Of a DNA stretch of 64,000 nt, positions 25,628 through 43,923 are shown piece after piece (position 1 is the first letter of the stretch; the number at the start of each line of letters is the position of its first letter). The position numbers and the translations under genes are program-made. The notes beneath the pieces are model-generated. The model did no database searches and had not been told where the DNA came from. It saw only the letters and a program-made list of their open reading frames with translations. The stretch comes from Flagellimonas nanhaiensis (GTDB taxonomy: Bacteria > Bacteroidota > Bacteroidia > Flavobacteriales > Flavobacteriaceae): contig NZ_QTJX01000005.1 of assembly GCF_003382275.1 (NCBI RefSeq), positions 124,001 to 188,000 of the forward strand, read 5' to 3'.

Positions 25628-25637
25628 TTTTCCGTTT

Positions 25638-25710
25638 AGTCATTCCGAACTTGTTTCGGAATCTTTTGGTTTATTGTTTGATGTGATGCTGAAACCAGTT
25701 CAGCATGACG
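25638..25710. repeat. Palindromic interspersed repeat in the trpB-trpA spacer
   Basis: Two 25-bp arms (25639-25663 and 25685-25709) are inverted copies with 20 of 25 matches by eye; outer ends read GTCAT...ATGAC and the inner part is GAACTTGTTTCGGAATC-like. The same family occurs downstream of rpoC (56753-56834). Confidence 0.85.
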
Positions 25711-25712
25711 TT

Positions 25713-30195: not shown

Positions 30196-31593
30196 TTAGA
30201 TGGATTCTGCAATTTCCAACGCCTTGGTCAAAGCGCCCAGTTTGTTATAGGTTTCTTGTAATTCCGTTTCAGGGTCTGAGGCGGCTACCAATCCGGCACC
30301 TGCCTGGTAGTGCAATTCATGGTTTTTACTTAAAAAAGTACGAATCATGATAGCATGGTTAAAGTTGCCTTTAAAATCCATGAATCCGATTGCACCGCCA
30401 TAATAGGCGCGGCCTGTTTTTTCATATTTTTCTATCAATTGCATGGCCATATGTTTGGGTGCCCCGCTTAAGGTGCCCGCAGGAAAGGTATCTGCCACAA
30501 TTTTCATGGTAGGGATATCTTTTTTCTTTTGGCCGGTTACCTTGGAGACCAAGTGAATCACATGGGAGAAATATTGCACTTCGCGATAGGTTTCCACATT
30601 GACTGCGTTACCATTTCGGCTAAGATCATTACGGGCTAGATCTACCAGCATTACGTGTTCACTGTTTTCTTTTTCATCTTGGGCCAGTTCTTTGGCCAGT
30701 TCCGCATCTTTTTCATCATTTCCGGTTCTTTTGTATGTGCCGGCAATGGGATGAATTTCGGCTTTTCCATCTTTCACGATCAATTGCGCTTCAGGCGAGC
30801 TACCGAAAATTTTGAAATTCCCATAATCAAAATAGAAAAGGTAAGGAGAAGGGTTAATAGAGCGCAATGCTCGGTACACGTTAAATTCATCACCTTTAAA
30901 ACCTTGGGAAAATCGTCTGGATAATACCAATTGGAAAACGTCTCCCCGTTGACAATGCTTTTTGGCCAAGGCCACATGTTCTTTATACTCTTCGTCCTTT
31001 AGGTTGGATTTTGGTGCACCTTCCTTTGAGAAATTATATGAGGCGAAATTTCTAACGGTGAAGAGCTGCTCTATTTCATCCACATTACTTTCGTTGTCGT
31101 AACAATGTGCAAACAGGTAGGCTTCATTTTTAAAATGGTTGATGGCGATGATATTTTGGTAGACCGCATAATAGATATCCGGAATATTGATGGAATCCTC
31201 TTTTTTGGAAATCTCCACATCTTCAAAATAGCGAACGGCATCATAGGACATATAACCGAAGAGACCATTATATATGAATTTGAAACCGTTCTGGGTTACA
31301 GAAAACCGCTTCCCGAAGTTATGGATCGTATCGGTTACATCAGTTTCAGCGGTAATTTTTGACACTTCTTTGGAACCATCAGGAAACTTTTGGGTAATAG
31401 TGTCATTCTCCACTTTAATATGGGCAATAGGATTGCAGCAGATGTAGGAAAAGCTATTATCGTTGGCATGATAGTCACTACTTTCCAAAAGAATGCTGTT
31501 GGGAAATTTATCCCGAATTTTCAGGTAGACACTCACGGGAGTAATGGTGTCCGCCAGAATTTTTTTGTAATGTGTTTTTAATTGATATTTCAT
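30196..31593 (-). CDS. trpE: Anthranilate synthase component I
   Basis: Chorismate to anthranilate, first step of tryptophan synthesis. About 465 residues: the N-terminal LLESSDYH segment carries the LLES motif associated with feedback inhibition by Trp; the chorismate-binding domain shows KEYKEHVALAKKHC-like entry helix, SRRFSQGF, FGSSPEAQLIVKDG, HPIAGTYKRTGND, ARNDLSRNG, FPAGTLSGAPKHMAMQLIE and YYGGAIGFMDFKG. The ATG at 31593 is chosen over an in-frame Met at 31611, which would lie inside a palindrome. The GIY-YIG gene intervenes between it and its attenuator. Confidence 0.97.
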   Translation of the reverse strand: MKYQLKTHYKKILADTITPVSVYLKIRDKFPNSILLESSDYHANDNSFSYICCNPIAHIKVENDTITQKFPDGSKEVSKITAETDVTDTIHNFGKRFSVTQNGFKFIYNGLFGYMSYDAVRYFEDVEISKKEDSINIPDIYYAVYQNIIAINHFKNEAYLFAHCYDNESNVDEIEQLFTVRNFASYNFSKEGAPKSNLKDEEYKEHVALAKKHCQRGDVFQLVLSRRFSQGFKGDEFNVYRALRSINPSPYLFYFDYGNFKIFGSSPEAQLIVKDGKAEIHPIAGTYKRTGNDEKDAELAKELAQDEKENSEHVMLVDLARNDLSRNGNAVNVETYREVQYFSHVIHLVSKVTGQKKKDIPTMKIVADTFPAGTLSGAPKHMAMQLIEKYEKTGRAYYGGAIGFMDFKGNFNHAIMIRTFLSKNHELHYQAGAGLVAASDPETELQETYNKLGALTKALEIAESI

Positions 31594-31604
31594 TTTTGTT
31601 TCTA

Positions 31605-31622
31605 TTTCCACGAAGGTGGAAA
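31605..31622. repeat. 18-bp palindrome downstream of the GIY-YIG gene
   Basis: TTTCCACGAAGGTGGAAA, stem TTTCCAC/GTGGAAA with a GAAG loop, 10 bp after the GIY-YIG stop and 11 bp before the trpE ATG. Together with 31933-31950 it forms an inverted pair (15 of 18 matched after reverse-complementing one). Confidence 0.9.
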
Positions 31623-31632
31623 GCTATTTTAG

Positions 31633-31917
31633 TTAATCAAAGAAATAGGTTAAGTCTTCCCAATTTGGATTAAAATCATTGATTAGGTTGATTTTCCAGT
31701 TTCTATTCCATTTTTTAAGTTGTTTTTCTCTTTTTATTGCAGGCATGGGAAACTTGAATTTTTCGTAGTATACCAAAAGATTGAGGTTGTACTTACTGGC
31801 AAATTTACTTCCCGCCCCACGCTTATGTCTATACATTCTCTTTTTCAAATCATTGGTATAACCTATATAAATAGTTCCCATTTTTTTGTTGGATATTATG
31901 TAGACATAAAAATTCAT
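31633..31917 (-). CDS. Small GIY-YIG nuclease (UPF0213-like) inserted in the trp leader
   Basis: 94 residues, a single GIY-YIG domain: FYVYIISN, TIYIGYTNDLKKRMYRHK (catalytic Tyr and Arg27), Glu64 in AIKREKQLKKW. The family cuts DNA with a metal ion; small stand-alone copies have no known partner. It sits on the operon strand between the trp attenuator terminator and trpE, tightly bracketed by palindromes at 31605-31622 and 31933-31950, and should be transcribed only when the attenuator is read through. It has no Shine-Dalgarno. The likely reading is a mobile or formerly mobile nuclease cassette. Confidence 0.92.
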   Translation of the reverse strand: MNFYVYIISNKKMGTIYIGYTNDLKKRMYRHKRGAGSKFASKYNLNLLVYYEKFKFPMPAIKREKQLKKWNRNWKINLINDFNPNWEDLTYFFD

Positions 31918-31932
31918 TTTGTAATCTTAAGA

Positions 31933-31950
31933 TTTCCGCCTTTGCGGAAA
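31933..31950. repeat. 18-bp palindrome upstream of the GIY-YIG gene
   Basis: TTTCCGCCTTTGCGGAAA, stem TTTCCGC/GCGGAAA, 15 bp before the GIY-YIG ATG. It overlaps another perfect palindrome, AATCTTAAGATT (31923-31934), and AAGAACTAAAGTTCTT lies just beyond it (31952-31967). Confidence 0.9.
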
Positions 31951-31965
31951 CAAGAACTAAAGTTC

Positions 31966-32003
31966 TTTAAAAGAAAAAGGCCTGTCGTGATGACAAGCCT
32001 TTT
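31966..32003 (-). terminator. trp operon attenuator terminator
   Basis: On the minus strand AAAAGGCTTGTC-ATCAC-GACAGGCCTTTT: a 12-bp stem with one G-U pair, a 5-nt loop and a T-rich tail (TTTTTCTTTT). It follows the Trp-rich leader peptide. The leader bases TGTCGTGA (minus strand, 32034-32027, including the leader stop codon) are exactly complementary to TCACGACA spanning the loop and 3' arm (31990-31983), giving a candidate antiterminator pairing. Confidence 0.9.
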
Positions 32004-32026: not shown

Positions 32027-32083
32027 TCACGACATTTGACGTAAGTTGATCCACCACCAAGTATTTACTGTTCTGTTATTCAT
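32027..32083 (-). CDS. trpL: trp operon leader peptide
   Basis: An 18-codon ORF, MNNRTVNTWWWINLRQMS, with three consecutive Trp codons, ending 23 nt before the terminator stem. This is the signature of translation-dependent transcription attenuation: a ribosome stalled at TGG TGG TGG for lack of charged tRNA-Trp leaves the TGTCGTGA segment free to pair with the terminator 3' arm, while a ribosome reaching the stop codon covers it. Its ATG lies 5 nt after a perfect TATCTTTG box, so it is probably translated from a near-leaderless mRNA. The mechanism is inferred from sequence; the features themselves are plainly visible. Confidence 0.9.
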   Translation of the reverse strand: MNNRTVNTWWWINLRQMS

Positions 32084-43837: not shown

Positions 43838-43858
43838 CTAGATTAAGACTATAATGTC

Positions 43859-43878
43859 ATTCCTGCGAAGGCAGGAAT
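43859..43878. repeat. 20-bp palindrome between tRNA-Gly and tRNA-Thr
   Basis: ATTCCTGCGAAGGCAGGAAT, preceded by GTC (GTCATTCC...). Core layout TTCC-GC-GAAG-GC-GGAA is like the two palindromes flanking the GIY-YIG gene. Confidence 0.85.
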
Positions 43879-43923
43879 CTCTTCCTTTAAAGGATTTTAG
43901 AGGTAGTTGATTCAACACTTTAC

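Follow-up and report, generated by a model that had tools for sequence, protein, structure and literature searches.

A GIY-YIG gene between two palindromes in the trp operon

The window, a stretch of 64,000 nucleotides from the 4.03-Mb genome of Flagellimonas nanhaiensis, contains a trp operon in which the attenuator is followed by a palindrome, a 94-aa GIY-YIG gene, a second palindrome and trpE. The features used below are as follows.

25628..25712, no strand: GIY-less tagged palindrome pair in the trpB/trpA gap (GTCATGCTGAAC..., ...GTTCGGAATGAC)
30196..31593, minus: trpE, an ORF taken from an ATG start instead of the listed GTG
31604..31623, no strand: 3' palindrome, an inverted relative of the 5' palindrome, its outermost pair broken in the window
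31633..31917, minus: GIY-YIG nuclease gene, 94 aa, with a PF01541 match
31932..31951, no strand: 5' palindrome, stem of 8 with an outer G-T pair, loop of 4
31975..32003, minus: trp attenuator terminator, a terminator-like stem recognisable in relatives
32027..32083, minus: trp leader peptide, MNNRTVNTWWWINLRQMS and stop, containing WWW

A sequence-only reading of the window had placed a 94-residue GIY-YIG gene on the operon strand between the trp attenuator and trpE, and the ORF at 31633-31917 (-) agrees with it, matching PF01541 at E 3.5e-17 with a score of 62.9 bits, where 22.6 would suffice. The palindromes described there, the first at 31933-31950, ending 15 bp upstream of the ATG, and the second at 31605-31622, starting 10 bp downstream of the stop, are indeed identical at 15 of 18 positions after inversion, the 3' one ending about 10 nt ahead of the trpE ATG. 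The further statement that TTGTTTC borders both outsides held for one side, where an inverted copy lies at 31597-31603; on the other, the motif overlaps the palindrome. A sigma-70-type scan, to which Bacteroidota promoters are outside scope, found no promoter-like site between the terminator and the GIY-YIG gene. Production of the nuclease on tryptophan starvation alone, as proposed in the sequence-only reading, would be a prediction from this position.

The protein belongs to the GIY-YIG superfamily by its fold and by the catalytic Y, Y, R and E, with Y6, Y17, G19, R27, H31 and E64 invariant in 16 aligned sequences, the window's included. Its AF2 model (pLDDT 92.7) has 1zg2 (UPF0213) as the best PDB fold match (E 1.5e-4), and sequence matches to solved structures reach E 2.9e-10 for 1zg2 and E 2e-7 for 1ywl, UPF0213 / YhbQ-like small GIY-YIG proteins being the nearest solved structures.

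With up to 3 mismatches allowed and near-symmetric sites scored on both strands, the palindrome pattern has 12 occurrences in the window, where chance predicts 3.8, and 0 of 100 shuffles reach that count. The strict pattern TTTCCRCNNNNGYGGAAA is confined to the two cassette sites in the whole 4.03-Mb genome. Elsewhere than at trpE, the number of matches is close to that of a reversed control pattern, and solo copies of the window palindrome were rejected on that ground.

The window hairpins keep their pairing

Both hairpins keep pairing through compensatory changes. Across 19 loci, 97.9% of cells are paired in the 5' palindrome, for which L084, L085 and L198 were realigned manually, the automatic pick there having been another hairpin, and 94.1% in the 3' palindrome; 3 and 5 pairs, respectively, have changed on both sides, counts reached in 0 of 500 shuffles for either palindrome, and slid controls are 24-63% (5') and 38-58% (3') paired. 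The number of pair types is not above that of the shuffles, 45 of 500 (5') and 500 of 500 (3') being as high. The possibility that the palindromes are ordinary terminators, raised together with the sequence-only reading, was rejected, since no operon-strand T-run is present, the stems covary, the palindrome type matches the nuclease across relatives, and the sole terminator-like call at a flank lies on the + strand, opposite to the operon.

In 2013, Di Nocera, De Gregorio and Rocco (PMC3733652) described CGTC-type REPs, which carry a CGTC, TGTC or CCTC tag, a stem of 8-9 beginning with AT, a loop of 4-5 and a CCA tail. The window stems consist of 7 paired positions plus a G-T pair or mismatch around a loop of 4, with a ATTTCCGC stem in many orthologues. 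No outward CGTC, TGTC or CCTC tag is found at either window palindrome, the tags being TCTT (5') and TTCT (3'), nor is there a CCA tail, the tails being CTT and CTA; having failed these strict tests, the window palindromes were not filed as CGTC REPs. They do look like diverged CGTC REPs, since the Salegentibacter orthologues L199 and L200 retain CGTC and TGTC tags at the 5' palindrome.

Occupied and empty sites

We retrieved 57 trp operons from 60 Muricauda/Flagellimonas genomes (trpE orthologues being found in 58), F. nanhaiensis included in each case. The site before trpE is occupied in 16 of the 57, with 14 intact and two broken copies (G045 and G040), and empty in 41, in line with the expectation of empty sites in related strains. 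By eye, the 41 empty sites contain no palindrome remnants, the gene and both hairpins being absent together, and in all 16 occupied sites the gene is flanked on either side by a hairpin in which 6 or more of the 8 stem pairs form. A gene universal in distant relatives but free of palindromes, which the sequence-only reading had named as the outcome against it, is thus not what was found, and its nuclease-plus-palindrome unit of REPtron-like layout is borne out, as is the existence of clean empty sites.

On a quick TrpE tree the occupied or empty state has to change at least 12 times, at least 8 of these changes being forced by well-supported branches; shuffled labels give 14 changes, with about 1 shuffle in 9 as low as 12, so that presence at trpE is close to scattered. 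Within the 60 genomes the window cassette type is confined to the trpE site, which accounts for each of the 16 matches above 55% identity (at least 81% when intact, two being broken); the remaining matches reach 55% at most. Three loci outside the genus sample, two from Salegentibacter and one from an uncultured Flavobacteriaceae, also carry this type before trpE.

GIY protein distances follow those of TrpE (r 0.66, Mantel p 2e-4, n=14 in the genus; r 0.95 when the three outside loci are added). The trpE-site protein is under strong purifying selection, with a median dN/dS of 0.044 and a ratio of sums of 0.062 for the 45 of 136 pairs that were usable (dS between 0.05 and 2). The cassette is thus old and is maintained wherever it is present, but it disappears (or is exchanged) as a whole; with distances that track TrpE, the window copy looks resident rather than active.

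Other GIY genes and other trp gaps

The F. nanhaiensis genome has eight small GIY-YIG genes, which by eye were split into "class P" (repeat-flanked) and "class T" (tRNA-side). Inverted or palindromic repeats lie close to L004-L008, on one or both sides, and their sequences differ. Thus, the expectation that the genome's other small GIY-YIG genes would have the same palindromes did not hold, the flanked ones having their own repeats, and a single palindrome shared by every GIY gene of the genome is ruled out. L004 (G000:C1:1224164) is a cassette with a different type of palindrome, placed immediately ahead of an apparent hisF (named by eye), and its relatives, 76-78% identical, are in trpB/trpA of G033 and G028.

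The second small GIY-YIG class, found next to tRNA or tmRNA genes, comprises L002, L003 and L009. L002 shares its 3' end with the start of a tRNA-Arg, which it overlaps at the 5' end, L003 stands between an apparent partial 5' tRNA-Leu copy and the whole tRNA-Leu gene, and L009 follows the tmRNA. Three tandem class-T copies are found at L129:1600-2650 (G018), where the two distinct copies analysed have TCCCGATAGCCATCGGGA palindromes with a long hairpin between them. Besides, a solo CGTC-type REP (TCATTCCTGCGAAGGCAGGAATC) is present at 43857-43879 of the window, between two stretches reading as tRNA genes.

Within the trp operon, GIY cassettes of two further types, all sense, are found in the trpD/trpC gap (5 of 55 genomes, the tree requiring 5 changes) and in the trpB/trpA gap (7 of 55 genomes, 6 changes), so that occupied and empty sites exist at three places, counting that before trpE. 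GIY-less palindrome pairs with outward TGTCATTCC-type ends fill many of these gaps, and other genomes have overlapping genes there. In these gaps, exact motifs of the L005 type were counted 40 times in one orientation and 2 in the other, sister-species copies not being independent, and the 2 reversed ones are, by eye, right-hand members of pairs. No target-site duplication is evident by eye at the trpE, trpD/trpC or trpB/trpA junctions.

Other small genes occur in trp gaps as well. The trpD/trpC gaps of L075, L083, L101 and L112 and the trpG/trpD gaps of L079, L109 and L121 hold a cassette that by eye is of the 23S rRNA intervening-sequence protein type (PF05635, E 3.5e-32 in L075), framed by imperfect inverted repeats. 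In the trpF/trpB gap of L099 (G015), repeats of the AGGGGATTAAGGGG type enclose a DUF559 nuclease-like gene (PF04480, E 1.1e-31), and gene-less repeats resembling this type by eye are present in trpB/trpA of L074, L075 and L102.

Relatives in several phyla

A search of genome contigs, with a query built from the genus cassettes, several of them in trp operons, yielded at least 540 confirmed relatives, and the best 80 were analysed. Inverted-repeat flanks (score of at least 28) frame 59 of these 80 GIY loci, compared with 17 of 494 control ORFs taken from these loci. Of 2000 mismatched flank pairs, 15.6% reach that score, and 21 of the 80 loci fall short of it. Hairpins stand on both sides at 47 of 80 loci (20 of 435 controls), and outward hairpins with a GTC tag on both sides at 25 (7 of 435) or on either side at 52 (32 of 435), leaving 28 loci with none. 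The titles of the records scoring at least 28 include Bacteroidota, Pseudomonadota, Spirochaetes, Chloroflexota, Parcubacteria, Uhrbacteria and Calditrichota, several being MAGs that may be misassigned.

The commonest flank form is TGTC/CGTC, stem and CCA, with tags outward. Among the 160 hairpins near the genes, the tag is TGTC in 66 and CGTC in 12, the tail is CCA in 58, the stem starts with AT in 109 and has 8 pairs in 102, and the loop is 4 or 5 in 146; GAC stands at the inner end, facing the other way, in 22. Thus, the relatives' flanks display the features of CGTC-type REPs as a population, with at least one GTC-tagged outward hairpin at those 52 loci.

Of 50 Bacteroidota loci flanked by an ORF on each side, 45 have the gene 3' of an ORF on its own strand, and in the 36 tandem gaps the gene is sense 33 times (p 2e-7); this usual position, downstream of and co-directional with a host gene, fits read-through expression. 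The L005-type protein matches 33 plasmid records, several of them chromosome-sized, and no match at E 1e-8 or better was found in 50,697 phage records, so phage carriage was set aside. Six further records were picked among 20 of these plasmid matches, three because PMC3733652 names the species, and in five of them (A. lipoferum, where sufB and sufC enclose the gene, N. aromaticivorans, S. meliloti, Rhizobium sp. CIAT894 and N. gonorrhoeae) a GIY gene is found among such repeats, not all of which face outward or have a CCA tail. In the sixth, from Planktothrix, the gene lacks a hairpin.

Neither recent relocation nor recent transposition was seen: in each of the 38 pairs at or above 90% protein identity the two members have the same context, and pairs in different contexts are 60-85% alike, a different context meaning no 150-base blastn flank match, which diverged or truncated flanks (L282, near a contig end) may mimic.

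Nuclease and palindrome match

The two tagged stems of a locus differ at 1.04 of 8 letters, against 3.57 between loci (25 loci), and protein distance correlates with stem distance among the 37 of 80 loci that have a tagged upstream hairpin (Mantel r 0.48, p 2e-4, n=37). Palindrome type follows the nuclease tree: with types assigned by stem and loop rules (a GTC or TTC tag being accepted), 33 of 51 Bacteroidota loci were typed and used, giving 4 changes against 12.6 when shuffled (0 of 200 as low), on a quick tree with 2 of 30 inner branches strongly supported. Two CTGAA-type loci, L216 and L272, lie outside their clade. Winogradskyella genomes carry both palindrome types, each with its matching nuclease clade, so host kinship alone does not explain the correspondence.

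The 14 genomes with an L005-type nuclease (at least 61% identity) hold more of its REP than the others (mean 5.0 vs 2.2, p 3e-4). When the gene-flanking copies are subtracted, one copy being assumed for three genomes, the excess is modest (3.6 vs 2.2, p 0.01). The cognate REP is still present in 29 of 46 genomes that lack the nuclease, so its persistence needs no nuclease; in many genomes REPs outlive or outspread it. At E 0.001 or better, PF01797 (RAYT/IS200) is unmatched in 50 of the 60 genus genomes, that is, in F. nanhaiensis and 49 of its 59 genus-mates, and a RAYT was rejected as the mover.

Comparison with known systems

In REPtrons, a RAYT tyrosine transposase is associated with GTAG REPs (PMC3733652). 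The GIY cassettes resemble them in having a small enzyme gene between cognate palindromes, with enzyme-less pairs dispersed in genomes, and differ in the tag, of GTC type rather than GTAG, and in the enzyme: the window cassette encodes no Y1/HUH tyrosine transposase, its product is a GIY-YIG hydrolase and the genome has no PF01797 match. CGTC-tagged REPs, in turn, are described as apparently lacking a dedicated transposase; dRS3 of Neisseria is counted among them, as are Rickettsia and Bradyrhizobium repeats, A. lipoferum, N. aromaticivorans and S. meliloti being named as CGTC-positive; "GIY" does not occur in the main text of that article (PMC3733652). The likeness to CGTC REPs lies in the paired flanks of the relatives, with a TGTC/CGTC tag, a stem of 8-9 bp starting with AT, a loop of 4-5 nt and a CCA tail, and in the GIY genes found among such repeats in the three named species and in the genus Neisseria. 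The window pair differs in its degenerate tag and tail.

A literature search of the titles and abstract starts listed, with bioRxiv preprints and most subscription journals outside its scope, found no link between GIY-YIG genes and REPs. We take the closest known enzyme to be the Ssn ssDNA-nuclease family. These GIY-YIG proteins, which reportedly appeared in Nature Communications in 2025, are said to be site-specific ssDNA nucleases acting on Neisseria NTS repeats, and that work is said to deal with transformation and ssDNA tools. The likeness would be that a small GIY-YIG protein goes with a dispersed repeat of its own, and the N. gonorrhoeae homologue found here, which has 53% identity to the L005-type protein, is located amid dRS3-like repeats. 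The occupied and empty sites and the CGTC REP match were worked out in the present analysis.

Interpretation

We consider the cassette to be probably one unit, made of a GIY-YIG gene and the two hairpins that its family would recognise, and an old, diverged and resident copy of a widespread element type that may be called a GIY REPtron. It would be a REPtron-like unit in which a hydrolytic GIY-YIG nuclease, with putative cleavage activity, replaces the RAYT. What is directly observed is the layout, the match between nuclease and palindrome, the covariation, the purifying selection, the existence of both occupied and empty sites, and the GIY-less doublets that fill the same gaps. Such an element would run from tag, hairpin and tail through the nuclease gene to tail, hairpin and tag, with GIY-less pairs (CGTC-type REP doublets) as its non-autonomous form. 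Presumably expressed by transcription reading through from the host operon, in this case past the trp attenuator, the nuclease may recognise and nick the tagged hairpin when it is single-stranded, as in replication, transcription or DNA uptake, and host repair could then copy the element into, or remove it from, intergenic sites. Against the GIY REPtron stand the restriction of the window type to trpE, the degenerate tag and tail, and the lack of a recent move. The control-level number of matches to the window palindrome, the absence of an evident target-site duplication, the loci and hairpins that depart from the common layout and the REPs persisting in genomes that lack the nuclease count against it too.

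The single fixed place before trpE could instead reflect a domesticated Ssn-like ssDNA nuclease, kept there for a service to the host such as control of incoming or exposed ssDNA at its cognate repeats, the repeats being regulatory or target sites and not mobile ends. Strong purifying selection, co-inheritance with TrpE and the N. gonorrhoeae relative among dRS3-like repeats would all suit such a protein, but 8-12 state changes at one site are odd for a host gene, the gene and both hairpins are jointly missing from 41 of 41 empty sites, and two copies (G045 and G040) are broken; we regard it as unlikely. GIY-YIG is a homing-nuclease fold, and an intergenic homing endonuclease that cuts insert-less trp operons and spreads by repair from the occupied allele would agree with this fold, with the scattered presence on the TrpE tree and with a type always at the same site, even in Salegentibacter and the uncultured Flavobacteriaceae genome. 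It would, however, have to manage with no separate DNA-binding domain in 94 aa, and it leaves the conserved matched palindromes and the GIY-less palindrome pairs unexplained, which makes it a distinctly poor candidate. That the GIY genes are passengers, caught by chance between two REPs moved by another enzyme (RAYT or IS), accords with the REPs that many genomes hold without the nuclease, but PF01797 is unmatched in 50 of 60 genomes, the GIY-hairpin association is far above that of control genes and the palindrome type tracks the nuclease tree, so we give this explanation very little credence.

Beyond the window, and more tentatively than for the cassette itself, GIY REPtrons may belong to something wider. 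It is possible, if short of probable, that GIY-YIG nucleases supply the dedicated enzyme hitherto missing from the CGTC REP superfamily, which would then be a multi-phylum, transposon-like class using a hydrolytic nuclease and host repair on folded single-stranded hairpins and inserting co-directionally behind host genes. The nuclease-hairpin pairs found across many bacteria suggest an enzyme partner for a widespread REP class whose enzyme was missing, and a cognate nuclease inside a repeat pair makes the question of the CGTC REP enzyme testable. If true, this would add a form of DNA movement without transposase chemistry and would explain why the core-operon spacers of sister species hold differing hairpins.
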